Shown here: piece after piece, positions 41,488 to 48,637 of the stretch | Layout of the letters: every line of letters begins with the position of its first letter | Numbering within the stretch: the first letter of the stretch is position 1 | DNA from: Candidatus Methanoplasma termitum | Lineage (GTDB): Archaea > Thermoplasmatota > Thermoplasmata > Methanomassiliicoccales > Methanomethylophilaceae | Direction of reading: 5' to 3' | DNA length: 64,000 bases | NCBI RefSeq assembly: GCF_000800805.1 | Contig: NZ_CP010070.1 | Coordinates: 1-64,000, forward strand | Notes under the pieces: model-generated | Told to the model about the DNA's origin: nothing | Databases searched by the model: none | Seen by the model: only the letters and a program-made list of their open reading frames with translations | Made by a program: the position numbers and the translations under genes

Positions 41488-41611
41488 ACCTCTTCATTAA
41501 AACACCTTACAACCCCACCCTTTTGCAAAAAACGAATTTCTGTTAGCAGATTTCTATTTTCAAGACAAATAATAATTAATATACATCAAACAATTCCGAA
41601 GTTTGGTCTTA

Positions 41612-43954
41612 ATGAAAGTAGATATCAAATACGGTAAGGATGGGGTCCAAAAGATAGACATCCCGGATAAGAACTATATCGGGACTTTCTTCCCGAAGGA
41701 TGTTCAATGCAGAGATCCGGACGAAGTGATAAACGAATCTATAGATGCCCCCATAGGGTACGATTCGCTGGCCAAATTCCTGGAGGGAGGAAAGGATATC
41801 GTTTTCATTGTCAACGACGGTACGAGGCCCACCCCCACGGCAAAGGTCTTGGATGCACTCTCCAAACGTATGGATCTCCGCAAAGCCAGATATCTTATCG
41901 CAACCGGGACGCACAGGGACATGACCCAAGAAGAATACAACTTCGTATTCGGAAAACACTACGCGTCCCTAAAGGACAGGATAATATCTCATGATGCGAA
42001 GAAATCCGAGTGTGTGAACCTTGGCAGATCGAAGAACGGAACTCCCATGGAGGTCAACAAGATCGCAGTGGATGCCGACCGCCTCGTGATAATAACAAGC
42101 GTCGAACCGCATTATTTTGCCGGATACACAGGAGGAAGGAAATCGTTCCTTCCTGGAGTAGCGTCGTACCGCACAGTAGAAACGAACCACAAACTTGCGA
42201 TGAGGAAGGAGGCTCAGTCGCTGGTCCTCAAAGGCAACCCCGTCCATGAAGATATGATGGACGCATTGGAAGTTGTCAAGGGCAAGAAGATATTCTCCAT
42301 CCAGATGGTTTTGGACCGCCATCAGCACATATATAAGGTGGCCTCCGGAAGCCTGAACCCGGCCTTTGACAAGGCAGTAGAATGGGCGAACAAAGTGTTC
42401 TCTGTCCCCATACCGGAGAAAGCGGATGTTGTGATATCCGTCGCGCCGTACCCGATGGATGTGGATCTCTATCAATCGCAGAAAGCGCTGGACAACGGAA
42501 AATGGGCACTCAAGGAAGGCGGCAAGATCGTAATGGTCTCGAAATGCAGGGAAGGTGTCGGCCATCCGACTTTCCTTACGCAGCTCTCTTCTTCAAAGGA
42601 TCCTAAAATAGTACTTGAGAACCTCAGCAAAGAATACAAGCTCGGGTACCACAAGGCCGCCAAGATGGCGGAGATAGCTGTTTGGGCGGACATATGGGCG
42701 GTCACCGATCTGGACCCGAAGATGATCGAGGCGGCGAACATCAAGCCGTTCCCGACGGTCGAAGCGGCAGTAAGAGAAGCACTCAGGCTTAACCCTAATG
42801 CGAAATTCATTGTTTTGGCGGACGGAAGCGTCACAATACCCAAGGTAGAGGATAAGATGTCAGATTTCAAGGCAGAACAGATAAAAGAAGTGAAAGAGGC
42901 TCTGAACACCTGCACCATGTGCGGTTTCTGTAAGGCGGTATGTCCGTCATTCAAAGCGATAGGCTGGGACTCGGCGTTATCGAGAGGAAGGATAATCCTG
43001 ACCTACGGTCTGCTTGTGGGCGACATAGAGCCGGACGCATCTGTCATGGAGAACATTTACACCTGCACGACCTGTGCGGACTGCAACAGGCGCTGCCCGT
43101 CGAATGTGGACATCGTCGAGATAATAGAGACCTGCCGCCGCGACCTCGTGGCGAACGGCCACATACTGCCGAAGCACAAGTCAGTGACAGAGAGCGTAAA
43201 GAAGTACAACAACCCATATTCCGAGAAGAGGTCCGTCGCCGAGACCCTCGGAGAGAAGCCTCATAAGGCGAAGGTGGGATACTTCTCCGGATGTACGGCG
43301 ACATACAGGGAGAAAGAGATCTCTAAGGCTACACTCTCGATCCTAAAGAAGCTCAAAGTGGACTATACAACGGTGAACGAGGTATGCTGCGGATCGGTCC
43401 TTCAGAGGATAGGTATCGACGAGAACGAAGTTTATAGGCTGATGAATAAGAACATAGAGGCCATCAAAGCACTCGGCATCGAGACCCTGGTATTCTCTTG
43501 TTCCGGATGCTACAGGATGTTCAAGCAGGAGTACCCAAAGCATGTGAAAGTTCCGTTCGAGGTGCTTCATATGTCGGAGTTCCTGGCCAAACAGGACCTT
43601 AAGCTGAAGTCCCTGGGCGATGTTAAGATCACATATCATGACCCCTGCCACTTGGGAAGGCACTGCGGTATATACGAGCCGCCGAGAGATGTGCTGAAGA
43701 AGTTCCCCAACGTCAATTTCAAAGAGATGAAATACAGCAAGGCGGGAAGCCACTGCTGCGGAGGCGGCGGAGGTGTCAGATCGGCATTCCCCGCGGAATC
43801 CAAAACGATCGCCTCGACAAGGCTGGACGAAGCGGACTTTGCCAATATCATAGTGACGACATGCCCGTTCTGCGTAGGGAACCTTTCGGCTGCAGTAGGG
43901 GACCGTAAGCTGAAAGTGATCGACCTGGTCGAGCTTGTCGACAAGAATCTATGA
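41612..43954 (+). CDS. LarA-family racemase fused to an HdrD/GlpC-like iron-sulfur CCG module
   Basis: About 780 aa in three parts. Residues 1-~420 are a LarA-type (nickel-pincer racemase family) domain with its catalytic positions kept: ATGTHR, EPHYFAGYTGGRKSFLPG and ETNHKLA supply the two general-base histidines and the cofactor lysine. Next comes a ferredoxin pair (CTMCGFCKAVCPS and CTTCADCNRRCPS). The C-terminus has two CCG units (VCCGS...CSGC and DPCHLGRHCG...HCCGGGGG), as in HdrD and GlpC. A redox step coupled to 2-hydroxyacid chemistry is inferred. I chose the ATG at 41612; TATA-like TTAATATA about 30 bp upstream suggests a leaderless mRNA, whereas the TTG at 41603 has no support. It overlaps folP by 4 bp. 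Confidence 0.85.
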   Translation: MKVDIKYGKDGVQKIDIPDKNYIGTFFPKDVQCRDPDEVINESIDAPIGYDSLAKFLEGGKDIVFIVNDGTRPTPTAKVLDALSKRMDLRKARYLIATGTHRDMTQEEYNFVFGKHYASLKDRIISHDAKKSECVNLGRSKNGTPMEVNKIAVDADRLVIITSVEPHYFAGYTGGRKSFLPGVASYRTVETNHKLAMRKEAQSLVLKGNPVHEDMMDALEVVKGKKIFSIQMVLDRHQHIYKVASGSLNPAFDKAVEWANKVFSVPIPEKADVVISVAPYPMDVDLYQSQKALDNGKWALKEGGKIVMVSKCREGVGHPTFLTQLSSSKDPKIVLENLSKEYKLGYHKAAKMAEIAVWADIWAVTDLDPKMIEAANIKPFPTVEAAVREALRLNPNAKFIVLADGSVTIPKVEDKMSDFKAEQIKEVKEALNTCTMCGFCKAVCPSFKAIGWDSALSRGRIILTYGLLVGDIEPDASVMENIYTCTTCADCNRRCPSNVDIVEIIETCRRDLVANGHILPKHKSVTESVKKYNNPYSEKRSVAETLGEKPHKAKVGYFSGCTATYREKEISKATLSILKKLKVDYTTVNEVCCGSVLQRIGIDENEVYRLMNKNIEAIKALGIETLVFSCSGCYRMFKQEYPKHVKVPFEVLHMSEFLAKQDLKLKSLGDVKITYHDPCHLGRHCGIYEPPRDVLKKFPNVNFKEMKYSKAGSHCCGGGGGVRSAFPAESKTIASTRLDEADFANIIVTTCPFCVGNLSAAVGDRKLKVIDLVELVDKNL

Positions 43955-44796
43955 GTACATTTCCCGATCTTTGGAAAAGGCCGAGAAGCCGTCCGTTGAT
44001 AGTTGGGATACTAAACCTTACCCCCGATTCCTTTTCGGACGGGGGTAAATATCTTTCAAAAAAAGATGCGCTTGAGCATGCACATTTCCTTATAAGGTCT
44101 GGCGCCGACATCATTGATATCGGAGGCGAATCCACAAGACCCGGCTCCGATGCTGTTACCGTCGAGGAAGAGCTGAGCAGGGTCATTGACGTGATCGAAG
44201 AGCTCGCATCGACTACCGACGTACCATTATCGATAGACACAACGAAACCCGTCGTTGCGGAAGCATCATTGAACGCAGGCGCGGTGATGATAAACGACAT
44301 AAGCGGGCTTAGAGAAGAAGCAATGATCAGGACGGCGATCGAATATGACGCCGCAGTCGTCATCACGCATATGCACGGAACACCTAAGACATTTCTCTTC
44401 GATACGATGAGAGGCGATGCCAACGGAGAGATCAAAAGATTCCTCGGGGACAGAGCGGAATACGCAACAGGCAAAGGGATGAAGGAAGGGAATATTATCA
44501 TAGACCCAGGCATCGGATTCGGCAAGACCGCCGAACAGGACATGAGCATAATAGAGAACAGCGGATGGTTCAGTGATAGGTATCCGATACTAATTGCCCC
44601 ATCCAGAAAAAAGTTCCTCTCAAAATACTGTCCGGATATGGATAAAGACCAGGCCACCGCGGTCGTATCGGGCATTGCAGCCGAGAATGGAGCAGGTCTT
44701 TTGAGAGTGCACAATGTTCCATTGGTCTTATCTTATCTCGAAAACAAAAAACCTGAGAAAATCAACCATTCCTTAGGAAGAAGCCAGCTACGATGA
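43951..44796 (+). CDS. folP: Dihydropteroate synthase
   Basis: This 281-aa enzyme joins p-aminobenzoate to the pterin in folate synthesis. The three hallmark stretches are present: GILNLTPDSFSDGG, DIGGESTRPGSDAV and SIDTTKP, with IAPSRKKFLSKYC near the C-terminus. Many methanogens make methanopterin by another route, so a classical DHPS fits an organism using tetrahydrofolate. It overlaps the LarA fusion by 4 bp and, convergently, the zinc-ribbon gene by 35 bp. Confidence 0.93.
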   Translation: MSTFPDLWKRPRSRPLIVGILNLTPDSFSDGGKYLSKKDALEHAHFLIRSGADIIDIGGESTRPGSDAVTVEEELSRVIDVIEELASTTDVPLSIDTTKPVVAEASLNAGAVMINDISGLREEAMIRTAIEYDAAVVITHMHGTPKTFLFDTMRGDANGEIKRFLGDRAEYATGKGMKEGNIIIDPGIGFGKTAEQDMSIIENSGWFSDRYPILIAPSRKKFLSKYCPDMDKDQATAVVSGIAAENGAGLLRVHNVPLVLSYLENKKPEKINHSLGRSQLR

Positions 44797-44968
44797 TGAT
44801 CGCGACGCTCACCGCCGTTATCACGGCAAATCGAATATTGCTATTCTTATCCTTTTTGATCCTGGCCTGTTCCTTCCAGTAACAGTCCTCTGAGCAAAAT
44901 GCCCTGTCAAACGGCACAGGATCCCCGCAGAACTTACAATGATCATGTTCGGGCAGTCTTATCGACAT
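44762..44968 (-). CDS. Small zinc-ribbon membrane protein (DUF2116-like)
   Basis: This 68-aa protein has an N-terminal zinc-binding motif (HCKFCGDPVPFDRAFCSEDCY) and one C-terminal transmembrane helix (about 47-66). This layout is typical of the archaeal DUF2116 family. Function unknown. Its last 35 bp overlap the end of folP on the other strand. Confidence 0.8.
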   Translation of the reverse strand: MSIRLPEHDHCKFCGDPVPFDRAFCSEDCYWKEQARIKKDKNSNIRFAVITAVSVAIIIVAGFFLRNG

Positions 44969-45037: not shown

Positions 45038-45043
45038 TTTTAT
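45038..45043 (+). promoter_or_regulatory. TATA box of the ubiquitin-like operon
   Basis: TTTATA is centred about 26 bp before the GTG at 45066, and no ribosome-binding site precedes that codon. This predicts a leaderless transcript that starts at the E1 gene. Confidence 0.55.
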
Positions 45044-45065
45044 ACCGAAAGAAAATGGTCGGTCT

Positions 45066-45833
45066 GTGAAAGTGCGGGAATATGACGCCGACAGATTCGA
45101 CAGGATGAGAAGGATCGATTGGTTGGACATGGTGAGGATACAGAGTGCAAGGTGCCTCGTGGTCGGCGCCGGCGCGCTCGGGAATGAGGTAATGAAATGC
45201 ATGCTGCTGGCAGGTTTCAGGGATATTACAATAGTAGATATGGACGAGGTCGTTGTCTCTAACCTAAGCAGGTGCGTGTTCTTCAGAGAAAGCGATAACG
45301 GGAAAAAGAAAGCGGAAGTTGTTGCCGAAAGGGCGGCAGACCTCTATCCGGGGTCAAAGATAACTCCGATCACAGCGAAGATACAGGATCTGGATGATTG
45401 GGAATTCGATCTCGTATTCGGGTGTTTGGACAACATCACGGCAAGGTTGCATGTGAACTCCCATGCAAGGTACAATAAGATACCCTACATCGATGGCGCC
45501 ACCGACGGGTTCAGAGGGAAAGTGCAAGTTGTGTTGGAAACAGGTCCCTGTTTGGAGTGCGGGATGAACAGCAGCCATATGAAGGTCATGGACGAAAGGT
45601 TCTCATGTACGGGAGAGGGGTCCGTCTTCATTCCGAAGTTCGCAGCAGAGATAACGACCACATCGATAATCGCAGCTACTCAGGTAAGAGAAGCAATAAA
45701 ACTATTATCAGGGAGAAGAGATTCCTGCGTCAGGAATGTCATGTATTATGACGGGCTGTCGGGGGCTATGGCGGATCTTGAGATCTCTGAGGACAGCAGC
45801 TGTCCGAACCACTTTACAGAGGGATCAAAATGA
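45066..45833 (+). CDS. E1-like ubiquitin-activating enzyme
   Basis: This 255-aa ThiF/MoeB/E1-fold protein would adenylate the C-terminal glycine of the ubiquitin-like protein encoded next. Visible are the nucleotide loop VVGAGALGNE (32-41), IVDMDEVVVSNLSR (56-69) with the ribose-binding acid and conserved Asn/Arg, and FGCLDN (118-123). A zinc site has CLEC (162-165) paired with SCPNH near the C-terminus. C181 in FSCTGEG is placed like the catalytic Cys of Uba2/Uba3, so a thioester-forming E1 is likely, not a MoeB. It is a minimal single-domain E1. The stop overlaps the ubiquitin-like gene (ATGA). No rhodanese domain or MoaD/ThiS partner is visible. Confidence 0.9.
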   Translation: MKVREYDADRFDRMRRIDWLDMVRIQSARCLVVGAGALGNEVMKCMLLAGFRDITIVDMDEVVVSNLSRCVFFRESDNGKKKAEVVAERAADLYPGSKITPITAKIQDLDDWEFDLVFGCLDNITARLHVNSHARYNKIPYIDGATDGFRGKVQVVLETGPCLECGMNSSHMKVMDERFSCTGEGSVFIPKFAAEITTTSIIAATQVREAIKLLSGRRDSCVRNVMYYDGLSGAMADLEISEDSSCPNHFTEGSK

Positions 45834-46072
45834 CCGTAAGAGTCACCGTAGTGAACACAATGAATGGTTCATCCATAAGGATGGAATTGGAATCTTATGA
45901 GTCCGTCGAGGACATAATAGACACCGCCGCAGAATACTGGGGCAAGGCCGCGGGAGCTTATGTTCTCAGAAAAGGGTCCAAGCTTCTGAACAAGAAACAG
46001 AAGATCGGGGATATCAATCTCAAAGATGATGACAAGATCGAAATGATCCCAGACCCGGAAGGCGGTAGCTGA
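45830..46072 (+). CDS. Ubiquitin-like modifier with C-terminal GG
   Basis: This 80-aa protein fits a beta-grasp fold: an N-terminal hairpin (TVRVTVVN..SSIRMELE), a central helix (VEDIIDTAAEYWG), then strands YVLRKGSKLL and DKIEMIP. It ends PEGGS, so the diglycine at 78-79 is followed by one serine that must be removed before activation, presumably by the JAMM peptidase in the same operon. It overlaps the E1 gene and abuts the E2 gene with one base between. The similarity is to the fold and the context, not to a named modifier. Confidence 0.87.
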   Translation: MTVRVTVVNTMNGSSIRMELESYESVEDIIDTAAEYWGKAAGAYVLRKGSKLLNKKQKIGDINLKDDDKIEMIPDPEGGS

Positions 46073-46073
46073 G

Positions 46074-46559
46074 ATGGGTCTGGTGAGACAGGTACTGATA
46101 AAAAGGATCAACAACGAGATCCTCGGTCTGAAATCTCACCTTAATGTCAGGATAAAAGAAGTGCCCGATGATGTAGAGTTCCCGATCGAAATAAGGATCG
46201 CACTGAAGAACATCCCCGCAAGAATATCAAAGGATCAGGTGAGCGGCGAACACATCCTGTCCATTATTGTTACCGAGAACTATCCGTACGAAAGGCCCAG
46301 AGCCAAATGGATGACGCCGATATTCCATCCGAACATAATGATGCCGGAGGACGGCGGATATGTCTGCGTCAAAATGTTGGACGATTGGTCATTCGGTTCA
46401 TCTTTGTTATCATTCGTGAGAGGCGTGGAACAGCTGATATCGGAACCGAACCCGAAGAATCCCTTTGGTACGGACTCATGCCTGGAGGCGGCGAAGTGGT
46501 ACTCGGCGAATAAACCCAGGATCGAAGCCGAGGTCAATTACGGTGGGCGCAATGCCTAA
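46074..46559 (+). CDS. E2-like ubiquitin-conjugating enzyme
   Basis: This 161-aa protein has a canonical UBC fold. Diagnostic stretches are NYPYERPRAKWMTPIFHPN (69-87, containing the HPN tripeptide), then GGYVCVKMLDDWSF with the catalytic Cys98 and the conserved Trp, and SFVRGVEQLISEPNPKNP (113-130), which closely follows eukaryotic E2 enzymes. It would accept the modifier from the E1 as a thioester and pass it to lysines. Its 3' end overlaps the JAMM gene by 8 bp. Canonical E2 enzymes are rare in archaea outside Asgard and Caldiarchaeum-type lineages, so this is a strong call with an unusual distribution. Confidence 0.93.
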   Translation: MGLVRQVLIKRINNEILGLKSHLNVRIKEVPDDVEFPIEIRIALKNIPARISKDQVSGEHILSIIVTENYPYERPRAKWMTPIFHPNIMMPEDGGYVCVKMLDDWSFGSSLLSFVRGVEQLISEPNPKNPFGTDSCLEAAKWYSANKPRIEAEVNYGGRNA

Positions 46560-47052
46560 GATAATCTCTTCCGATACCCCGGAGATAGAATTCAGGAAAA
46601 GACCGGTAAAGGGTGTTAATCTGTTTGTAAGCGAGAGTGTGATAACAGCGATGACAGAACACGCCGAATCCGGATATGCGGAGAACAAAGAGGTCATGGG
46701 GCTGTTGGCAGGTTATATTTTCAAAGACGATGAGGGGATGTATGTCCGCATCGAGGATGCCGTGACGTCGGAACTCGAAGCGGACGAGGTGAGCGTGAGA
46801 TTCAAAAAAGAAAATCTTGAAGAACTTTTTGACTCTATTGACAATTGCGAGGGCGACGCGGTTGTCGGATGGTACCATTCTCATCTCGGTATCGGATGTT
46901 ATCTTTCGGAAGTTGACATAAGGACGCACATGGGATTATTCGGAGGGGAGATAGGGTTTGCGGTCGTAATAGACCCTTCCGATTCGACCCTTGCTGTTTT
47001 CTCATGCGATGACTACAAACCAAAAATCGTCTCGATGATAGTGTTCAACTGA
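46552..47052 (+). CDS. JAMM (MPN+) deubiquitinase-like metalloprotease
   Basis: This 166-aa protein (ATG at 46552; upstream in-frame codons lie inside the E2 gene) carries a full JAMM zinc site: Glu47 in KEVMGLL and HxH-x7-S-x2-D at H109, H111, S119 and D122. The active-site stretch VVGWYHSHLGIGCYLSEVD closely resembles proteasomal Rpn11 rather than bacterial RadC or Mec+. It probably trims the GGS tail of the modifier and removes it from targets. It is the last gene of the four-gene cluster and abuts the convergent hexuloisomerase gene with no gap. Confidence 0.93.
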   Translation: MPKIISSDTPEIEFRKRPVKGVNLFVSESVITAMTEHAESGYAENKEVMGLLAGYIFKDDEGMYVRIEDAVTSELEADEVSVRFKKENLEELFDSIDNCEGDAVVGWYHSHLGIGCYLSEVDIRTHMGLFGGEIGFAVVIDPSDSTLAVFSCDDYKPKIVSMIVFN

Positions 47053-47592
47053 TCATACCCAGATGGCATGTCTTTTCCGCATGTCCTCTTCCGTGACATT
47101 AAGTCTCCGCATCAGTTCCGGTACGATGCAGTCGAAGAAGAAAAGAACGGTATCCTCGAAGATCGTACCCAGCGGTGCCAATTTGGAATCGGCCTCGTAC
47201 TTTGTGATATTAAAGATGATTGTAGTGTTGGAGGCGGCGGCAAGTTTGCTTGTCCCGGACGATGTCAGCGATACTACATGTGACCCGACGCGCCTGGCTA
47301 TTTCGGCCGTTTGAACAACGGACATAGTCCGCCCGGTGTTAGAGATCAATAGTGTAAGATCGTTCTTTCCGATGATCGGGGTGGTCATGTCTCCGACGAA
47401 ATGTACGTTCAATCCCAGCTGCACCATCCTCACGGAAAACAACTGTCCGATGAGACCGGACCTTCCGGAACCGTAAACAAAGATCTTTTCCTTTGAGATT
47501 ATGAGGTCGATCAGAACATTCCATTCGCTCTCCGGGATGGAATAAACTACCGCCTTACAGCGCTCTTTGAGATAATCCATCGTCTCCCGCAA
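47053..47592 (-). CDS. hxlB: 6-phospho-3-hexuloisomerase (SIS domain)
   Basis: This 179-aa SIS-fold protein matches the Phi/HxlB family, which interconverts 3-hexulose-6-phosphate and fructose-6-phosphate. Features are FVYGSGRSGLIGQLFSVRMVQLG, the sugar-phosphate loop ISNTGRTMSVV, and the conserved PLGTIFEDTVLFFFD. In many archaea this pathway run in reverse makes ribulose-5-phosphate. It converges on the JAMM gene and follows the TIM-barrel gene by 4 bp, so those two form an operon. Confidence 0.87.
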   Translation of the reverse strand: MRETMDYLKERCKAVVYSIPESEWNVLIDLIISKEKIFVYGSGRSGLIGQLFSVRMVQLGLNVHFVGDMTTPIIGKNDLTLLISNTGRTMSVVQTAEIARRVGSHVVSLTSSGTSKLAAASNTTIIFNITKYEADSKLAPLGTIFEDTVLFFFDCIVPELMRRLNVTEEDMRKRHAIWV

Positions 47593-47596
47593 GGTT

Positions 47597-48637
47597 TCAT
47601 TCCTCTGCCGCTGCGGCCAGTTCGGCCTTTTTCTTCTCTTTAAGTGCTTTGGCCACTCTTTTGCTCAGTACCCTTTCATTAATGATCCTCATATACATCG
47701 CATCATGTTCCAGCAAGGGGGAGGACGATATTATCGTCGCATCCGGATTGAGGGTGCAGAGTGCTTCCGCCAATGGTTCGAATTTCAAATCCCCTTTCTT
47801 GATAGGGGTGAGCCTCTTCTCATTTCCGTCGCTGTATTCAACACCTGCAAATGCGGCGTGAATACTGCTTTTACAATACGGCTCCACCTGCTGAATCAGG
47901 TCAATAAAATCCTCCGGTTCTGTAAGCGAACCGTTGGTCCTTGAGTGGTGGTGCGGGAAGTTTATGACCGGAACAATGCCGTCAATCGAATCGCATAGAT
48001 CCAATATCTGATCCAATGACCCGTATGCGGACTGGTGGCCGGTGATCTCCACTCCGAGCTTAGGGCGGATCTTGTTGTCTTTCCACCATTCCATAATGGT
48101 TGCCACATTTTCCTCGATGTTCGCATCCGTTTCTTCTCTGGACATCTTTCCTGTGTACAGACCGAGGCCTGTCACCACGATATCTCCGTCTAGGGCATTA
48201 ACAATGGTTGCCGCTCTTCTGATGTTGTCGATGCACGACTCGGTGATCTCGGTGTTCATACCCAGATCCATGTAATAGGGAGTATGCAGTGAAACACTTA
48301 CATCCAATCTTTTTGCGATCTCTCCGATACCGTAGAGTTCGCCGAAGCTGTTGGTTATTCCGGACGGCATATAGATAAGGACATCATCCTCTTCGACGAT
48401 CTCCTCCGGGTCAGATATTATCTCGCCGTCCCTGTCCACTTCAACGACGAATCCCTCTTCAATGTCCATGATCCTGATGCCTATCTCTTCCTCATTGGGG
48501 ACCCTTCCGTAAACGCCCGCCCTCACCATCTGGATGCCGAGTGCGTTCAGACTGAGGTTATGTACATCCTCGATCCCATCTTTCAATGTTCGTCCTTTAC
48601 AAGACAGGGGTATTCCGGCAGGTCCGAATCTTATCAT
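47597..48637 (-). CDS. Endonuclease IV-like TIM-barrel protein
   Basis: This 346-aa protein resembles the AP endonuclease family 2 / xylose-isomerase-like TIM barrel found in archaea. It shows FGPAGIPLSCKG at the start, SLHTPYYMDL, GVEITGHQSAYGSLDQILDLCD and INFPHHHSRTNG, with His, Glu and Asp positions suited to a trinuclear zinc site. An insert around residues 50-100 (acidic, EEGFVVEVDRDGEIISDPEE) departs from standard Nfo. DNA repair at abasic sites is plausible but not proven for this subgroup. The alanine-rich charged C-terminus is probably unstructured. Confidence 0.78.
   Translation of the reverse strand: MIRFGPAGIPLSCKGRTLKDGIEDVHNLSLNALGIQMVRAGVYGRVPNEEEIGIRIMDIEEGFVVEVDRDGEIISDPEEIVEEDDVLIYMPSGITNSFGELYGIGEIAKRLDVSVSLHTPYYMDLGMNTEITESCIDNIRRAATIVNALDGDIVVTGLGLYTGKMSREETDANIEENVATIMEWWKDNKIRPKLGVEITGHQSAYGSLDQILDLCDSIDGIVPVINFPHHHSRTNGSLTEPEDFIDLIQQVEPYCKSSIHAAFAGVEYSDGNEKRLTPIKKGDLKFEPLAEALCTLNPDATIISSSPLLEHDAMYMRIINERVLSKRVAKALKEKKKAELAAAAEE

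Follow-up and report, generated by a model that had tools for sequence, protein, structure and literature searches.

A predicted ubiquitin-like conjugation operon of Candidatus Methanoplasma termitum, inherited among Thermoplasmata, and its probable RING partner

Introduction

Four genes at positions 45066-47052 of a 64,000-nucleotide stretch of Candidatus Methanoplasma termitum DNA (contig NZ_CP010070.1, positions 1 to 64,000; the whole stretch is called the window here) raise the question of whether a euryarchaeal methanogen has an E2-dependent, ubiquitin-like conjugation pathway of its own and, if so, what it would be used for. An initial annotation, made from the letters alone, had proposed an operon for an E1-like activating enzyme, a ubiquitin-like modifier (Ubl), an E2 conjugating enzyme and a JAMM protease in a member of the Thermoplasmatota, serving either protein turnover or defence. 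The operon with its four named components is confirmed here, chance being ruled out, and the placement of the host holds. The reading preferred below, and held with good though not full assurance, is that of a complete and reversible ubiquitin-like conjugation system with an unlinked RING protein as its probable E3, the likeliest use of which is the tagging of proteins for the proteasome. Genomes (G), contigs (C), loci (L), genera (g) and families (f) are cited by the handles of this survey.

Results

The operon and its four products

All four open reading frames (ORFs) lie on the forward strand and overlap or abut: the E1-like adenylating enzyme (45066-45833; 255 residues, with a GTG start), the modifier (45830-46072; 80 residues), the E2 (46074-46559; 161 residues) and the JAMM/MPN+ metalloprotease (46552-47052; 166 residues). 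The E1 and modifier genes are joined by an ATGA overlap, a single base separates the modifier gene from that of the E2, and the E2 and JAMM genes overlap by 8 nucleotides. A TATA-like element, TTTTATAC, read directly from the forward strand at 45038-45045 as a putative promoter, stands 21-28 nucleotides 5' of the GTG start, a spacing that would suit a leaderless transcript. The proposed set of four folds with their catalytic residues is supported by Pfam, by structural models and by conservation among relatives, for which 53-59 sequences of each protein were compared.

The E1 matches Pfam ThiF (E = 1.9e-50) and carries the ATP loop GAGALGNE. Its candidate catalytic residue, Cys181, is conserved in 53/53 sequences, and the alignment of relatives also shows the probable zinc ligands Cys162, Cys165, Cys246 and His249 to be kept. 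In profile searches the best PDB matches are the adenylation domains of Uba1, Uba6 and Uba3, while the matches over the full length are MoeB, ThiF and UBA5. A cysteine placed like that of Uba2 or Uba3 had been suggested, and as to position this stands: Cys181 lies 16 residues past the second cysteine of a CxxC zinc pair, and the same pair precedes the catalytic-cysteine domain of UBA3. As to architecture it does not, for the protein is a single domain of ThiF/MoeB/UBA5 size, with a short stretch containing Cys181 instead of a separate catalytic-cysteine domain and, in 255 residues, no room for a UFD. Recruitment of the E2 must therefore differ from that by Uba1 and Uba3, which use the UFD.

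The modifier is the weakest of the four by sequence. Its match to Pfam ubiquitin (E = 6e-5, 23.2 bits) falls under the 25.4-bit gathering cut-off, and it is for this reason named ubiquitin-like rather than ubiquitin; even so, it matches ubiquitin better than MoaD (6e-5 against 0.016), and a profile of 41 modifiers has ubiquitin as its best PDB match. The fold is settled by structural modelling: an AlphaFold model built with 41 homologues as input is a beta-grasp with a predicted local distance difference test (pLDDT) score of 87.3, and its best Foldseek matches are Hub1, ubiquitin, SUMO, ISG15 and NEDD8, at template modelling scores of 0.8-0.87 for the last four; Caldiarchaeum ubiquitin is also among the matches. 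The C-terminus, correctly described at the outset as ending GGS, reads PDPEGG-S. This PDPEGG tail is kept among relatives, the GG in 57/57, and is followed by 0-9 unconserved and unrelated residues, with none at all in half of the loci. The diglycine is thus the precise limit of conservation, which is what a conjugated modifier should show.

The E2 matches Pfam UQ_con (PF00179) with E = 7e-14 and 52 bits, well over the cut-off of 27, and AlphaFold gives a confident UBC fold (pLDDT 90.6) for which the Foldseek matches listed are E2s. Its HPN motif at residues 85-87 and catalytic Cys98, both named correctly from the sequence, are each found in 59/59 relatives; a second invariant cysteine is Cys136. 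On this pattern of residues the E2 is predicted to take the modifier from the E1 on Cys98. The JAMM protein matches Pfam JAB (E = 7.7e-17, 61.6 bits, over the 22.5 cut-off) and carries the motif EVMGLL...GWYHSHLGIGCYLSEVD, with a zinc site of the form E...HxH...SxxD. Glu47, His109, His111 and Asp122, as originally assigned, and Ser119 with them, are kept in 96-100% of relatives, and a profile search finds PSMD14/Rpn11, CSN5 and Caldiarchaeum Rpn11 as the best PDB matches.

Distribution and descent

The survey of the locus in related genomes that had been suggested shows it to be widespread in the Methanomassiliicoccales and in many other Thermoplasmata. An E2 matching PF00179 occurs, nearly always in single copy, in 121/400 genomes of the class and 43/105 genera, as well as in further families of the phylum beyond the class. 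In 40 stretches of 4-11.5 kb around E2 matches, all four genes are found together in 32, mostly in the order E1-Ubl-E2-JAMM; the E1 gene has been relocated behind that for JAMM in families f29 and f32, and is set apart by about 1 kb in family f23. A tree of E1 and E2 recovers all nine multi-member families (9/9) as monophyletic, f13 with weak support. Clustering of neighbours at 38 loci identifies the flanks as housekeeping genes, namely DHPS, an SIS isomerase, endonuclease IV and ribosomal proteins, to which tryptophanyl-tRNA synthetase was added by eye. The locus is a vertically inherited core locus and not a mobile island.

Viral origin was considered and rejected: the viral contigs scanned gave 21 pattern matches, none of them a relative of the system.

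Several variants were seen along the way. Two E2 genes of the same family are present in G415, G426, G448 and G476, outside the class. The very large Thermoplasmata genomes G015 and G026 of family f20 (3.2 and 5.2 Mb; L056, L057, L058) encode an additional E2 that is more like those of eukaryotes (84 bits to PF00179), an E1 of 410 residues and JAMM proteins with long extra regions, G026 having two different systems. In families f32 and f29 (L046, L051, L052) the modifier forms the C-terminus of a protein of 355-378 residues, along with zinc ribbons and a further, unknown domain; the JAMM protein there has a long, coiled-coil-like extension.

Genomes that have lost the enzymes

Some Methanomassiliicoccales are without the operon, and at the syntenic site, located with the help of the endonuclease IV-like flank, the gene string has closed up. 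DHPS adjoins endonuclease IV at the empty site of G208, and in G156 and G229 the SIS and endonuclease IV genes are retained with the operon gone. Genus g3 also shows successive states of decay. Its genomes G018, G047 and G232 keep E1, modifier and E2 together with a JAMM protein lacking the HxH site; their modifiers (3/3) end exactly at GG, and therefore need no maturation. In the same genus, G131 has at the site only degenerate relics of E1 and JAMM, the former without Cys181, and G078 keeps a relic of JAMM.

Orphan modifiers survive in 18 genomes lacking the E2, representing about three independent events: 16 of genus g5, plus G131 and G229. All 18 have lost the GG, ending instead in IPDPDSDP, IPDPEAFF, LVHER and the like. 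These genes were located at L217-L219 and L221-L233 (g5), L216 (G229) and L220 (G131), and they are kept in nearly the whole of genus g5.

Family f11 (L234-L241) has fused modifier and E2 into proteins of 223-254 residues in which the modifier lacks GG. The cysteine at the catalytic position is absent from 7/7 fusions with a readable HPN, and the eighth fusion has no HPN; a search for JAMM in ten f11 genomes found none. The f11 fusion is a pseudo-E2~Ub. Since both the orphans and the fusions are without it, the GG is kept only where the enzymes are present.

A RING protein that travels with the cascade

The host genome (G000) has, at about 1084798-1085326 of contig C1 (L170:4799-5327), a RING-finger gene that is not linked to the operon and whose product bears an N-terminal membrane helix. 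When 41 relatives were searched with PF13639, weak matches appeared in operon-bearing genomes and none in four high-quality genomes lacking the operon; the RING protein is present in 20/20 high-quality relatives with JAMM and absent from 4/4 without it. The matches constitute one family (A3), with the pattern C-x2-C, then C-x-C-G-x2-F-H-x2-C-x6-C-P-Y-C, followed by one or more zinc ribbons. An N-terminal hydrophobic helix scores above 1.8 on the Kyte-Doolittle scale in 15/19 members. A profile of the RING portion only finds the RINGs of the E3 ligases RNF165, Arkadia and AMFR in the PDB, the first two with E of about 1e-7.

Within the host's family 35 genomes have both E2 and RING, one has E2 without RING, three have RING without E2 (two of these matches being weak) and at least 20 have neither, giving a Fisher p of about 1e-11 when shared ancestry is ignored. 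The lists of genomes with E2 and with RING are identical in the other families of the order, f2-f6 (29/29), and in genus g3 the two are either both present or both absent. Loss seems to have occurred separately in genera g5 and g10, in part of g3, in G156 and in G229. Beyond the order, the RING profile also matches long multidomain proteins of about 1500 residues in genomes without E2, and the argument from co-occurrence is for this reason limited to the Methanomassiliicoccales.

In the host genome, 15 bases separate the RING gene from the next ORF, called Pop5-like because it resembles the one found in this position in relatives; psmA, SBDS, Rrp4 and Rrp41 come after it. Fifteen RING loci were examined. 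Eight, from families f1-f4, have the order RING-(FtsZ)-(Pop5)-psmA, always co-directional, with SBDS, Rrp4 and Rrp41 after psmA in most of them; the remaining seven end early or have no psmA called. RING adjoins HdrA in nearly all 15. Because it co-occurs with the operon and heads the psmA-SBDS-Rrp4-Rrp41 string, the RING protein is probably the E3 of the cascade, its ligase activity being a prediction from sequence. The idea that the system has no E3 was dropped after the co-occurrence of RING and cascade had been seen.

Discussion

What the system would do

The folds and catalytic residues, the operon, their conservation, the co-occurrence and co-loss with RING, and the gene order together argue, at the level of sequence, for a conjugation cascade, in which confidence is high; confidence that the cascade serves the proteasome is moderate. 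In the proposed cycle the JAMM protein would trim whatever residues follow the GG, where there are any, and the minimal E1 would adenylate the GG end and probably load it on Cys181. The modifier would then pass to Cys98 of the E2 and from there to lysines of target proteins, transfer to lysine being assisted by the RING protein. The outcome might be proteasomal or regulatory, and the Rpn11-like JAMM would later take off the tag or recycle it. The targets are perhaps membrane proteins, which would be marked for the proteasome. Such marking is put forward as the likeliest use because the psmA/exosome string lies just downstream of the RING gene and runs in the same direction; this position and the Rpn11-like character of the JAMM protein together make proteasome tagging the leading role. 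Judged from this gene context, turnover is favoured among the two roles initially suggested, and phage defence is not.

It is tempting to go further and to see here a Thermoplasmatota ubiquitin-proteasome pathway for membrane-protein quality control, resembling endoplasmic-reticulum-associated degradation, with a membrane-anchored RING as E3, encoded next to the proteasome alpha subunit and acting together with a minimal, UBA5-like E1, a classical E2 and an Rpn11-like JAMM protein, and with a vertical history in which loss has left GG-less orphans and Ubl-E2 pseudoenzymes. This fuller picture is offered only tentatively.

Several observations weigh against proteasome tagging by a RING-assisted cascade. 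The steps of the conjugation chemistry are predictions from sequence. In the proteins scanned, Pfam scores for RING lie under the curated cut-offs: the host's own reaches 20.9 bits against zf-RING_2, where the cut-off is 27.3, and 3/41 genomes pass in the genome search. One ligand of the second zinc site is absent from the RING of one genus. The Fisher value takes no account of kinship, and the clean co-losses come down to about five independent events, with a strong RING match without E2 in G265 and an E2 without RING in G349. The link to the proteasome is an association by gene neighbourhood, within a string that archaea conserve whether or not they have the system; this proteasome-exosome string occurs elsewhere with no RING gene. 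Finally, the family includes GG-less orphans, so a non-covalent function may exist for these orphans and, beside conjugation, for the modifier.

The cascade could also be real and yet non-proteolytic, regulating envelope or redox complexes, with RING near psmA by historical accident. This is possible but doubtful. RING is flanked by HdrA/MvhD too, most members of its family have the hydrophobic helix, and core-gene neighbourhoods persist for long periods; on the other hand, the JAMM protein is closest to the proteasomal Rpn11, and RING is co-directional with psmA wherever psmA is called. Another proposal is that the modifier is a sulfur carrier for tRNA thiolation or cofactor synthesis, served by an E1 of MoeB/ThiF type with the E2 and JAMM as accessories. 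The size of the E1 and its full-length matches to both MoeB and ThiF would fit, and archaeal Ubls are often sulfur carriers as well (PMC2948915). However, a separate ThiF/ThiS pair (C1:332752-333581) and a second ThiS-like gene (C1:702723-702878) give sulfur-carrier functions their own genes, the modifier is closer to ubiquitin than to MoaD, and the HPN and cysteine of the E2, not needed by a sulfur carrier, are nevertheless invariant, so that this explanation is considered improbable.

Conjugation in phage defence, of the Bil or CBASS (cyclic-oligonucleotide-based anti-phage signalling system) Cap2/Cap3 type, is rated a little lower, as very improbable. It would account for the joint occurrence of the four functions, as in the bacterial type 6d/Bil operon, and PADLOC E1-E2 models do match the E1 weakly; against this, PADLOC gives no match to the Ubl or the E2, the genes form one vertically inherited copy amid housekeeping genes in most bearers and are not found in islands or viruses, and a single Ubl, a single-domain E1 and an HPN E2 stand here against the tandem Ubl and two-domain E1 of Bil (PMC11354881). 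The least credible alternative is E2-independent modification of the SAMP type, in which the UBC protein would be a partner without catalytic function. Conjugation of archaeal SAMPs takes place in the absence of an E2, and the UbaA model does score the E1, at 88.7 bits; the cut-off is however 450, the desampylase model reaches 36.8 against 130, and the HPN and cysteine of the E2 are invariant in complete cascades, the cysteine being lost only in the Ubl-E2 fusions without JAMM. As to formal classification, membership of the Bil, CBASS and 6A groups was rejected on the PADLOC and NCBIfam E2 and Ubl models, the single Ubl and the single-domain E1, and membership of the SAMP group on the curated UbaA and desampylase models and the presence of an E2.

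Neighbouring genes

Downstream, and convergent with the operon, are two conserved flanks that lie outside the system, both on the reverse strand: a gene for an SIS-domain, sugar-phosphate isomerase-like protein (47053-47592) and an endonuclease IV-like gene (47597-48637). Upstream, and divergent from the operon, a reverse-strand gene at 44762-44968 encodes a 68-residue protein with a zinc finger and a membrane helix; some genomes retain this gene after losing the operon, to which it is therefore not tied. At 41603-43954, LarA-like and HdrD-like domains are joined in a single ORF of 783 residues, where relatives at L205, L207 and L212 have two separate ORFs.

Significance

What is new is an archaeal ubiquitin-like conjugation system whose E1 is minimal and whose probable RING partner is encoded apart from the operon, beside proteasome genes; parts of the system were glimpsed in 2015 and 2018. 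E2-containing archaeal systems have figured in the literature almost exclusively for Caldiarchaeum and the Asgard archaea, and the simpler version described here has been inherited vertically across a large class of euryarchaea, gut methanogens among them. It is very probably an inherited archaeal counterpart, of ancient origin, to the ubiquitin system of eukaryotes. It makes testable whether archaeal E2-dependent conjugation feeds the proteasome, and whether an E1-E2-RING-JAMM core is older than the Asgard and TACK lineages, and the enzyme-loss genomes with their GG-less modifiers provide a natural control experiment.

Comparison with known systems

The initial annotation had E2-containing archaeal sets known mainly from Caldiarchaeum and Asgard lineages, which holds in the main; the JAMM-3 passages of Fuchs et al. 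2018 (PMC6043591) had already hinted at operons beyond these. They report that JAMM proteins nearer to Rpn11 share operons with homologues of Ub, E1 and E2, and themselves name no organism, operon anatomy or function; the JAMM protein described here is, like that group, nearer to Rpn11/CSN5 than are other prokaryotic JAMMs. Fort et al. 2015 (PMC4453063) described an Rpn11-like protein, WP_019177758, of Methanomassiliicoccus luminyensis, and another of Caldiarchaeum, treating the former as a proteasome-lid homologue in a passage where operon, modifier, E2 and RING go unmentioned. WP_019177758 comes from a cultured member of the same order and is very likely the JAMM encoded by its counterpart of this operon. 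Archaeal clusters were surveyed by Hennell James et al. 2017 (PMC5654768), whose Cluster III appears in the supplement only, and a single marine group II euryarchaeote is on the list of Grau-Bove et al. 2014 (PMC4327156). In a search of full-text literature for Methanomassiliicoccales, Methanomassiliicoccus and Thermoplasmatota with ubiquitin terms, outside which most subscription papers and all preprints fall, the system was found to be undescribed.

The nearest relative in organisation is the operon of Caldiarchaeum subterraneum (Ub, E1, E2, the small RING protein srfp, and Rpn11; PMC5654768, PMC6043591). Common to both are the clustering of Ub, E1, E2 and an Rpn11-like JAMM, the existence of a RING protein and a short C-terminal extension on the modifier; CsRpn11 is among the matches of the JAMM protein, and CsUb among the structural matches of the modifier. 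The Caldiarchaeum E1, however, has a distinct catalytic-cysteine domain and a UFD, whereas the 255-residue E1 here has neither, and its small RING gene lies in the operon, whereas the RING gene here is unlinked, beside proteasome genes, its products mostly bearing a membrane helix and zinc ribbons. A further difference is that the JAMM gene here lies within the operon.

In its economy the system resembles the UBA5-UFC1-UFM1 cascade. UBA5 is a single-domain E1 with its cysteine within the adenylation unit, and the E1 profile matches it over the full length. The modifier here differs in ending at GG and matching ubiquitin best, and a JAMM protein is present where the other cascade has UFSP. With the SAMP/UbaA/HvJAMM1 system of haloarchaea an archaeal Ubl, an E1 and a JAMM protein are shared, but SAMP conjugation has no E2. 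The bacterial Bil (BilABCD) and type 6d operons (PMC1779556, PMC11354881) likewise encode Ubl, E1, E2 and JAB together; they are sporadic in bacteria, with tandem Ubls, a two-domain E1 and an E2 lacking the classical histidine, whereas the present locus is of housekeeping character, with vertical inheritance and an E2 that has the classical HPN.

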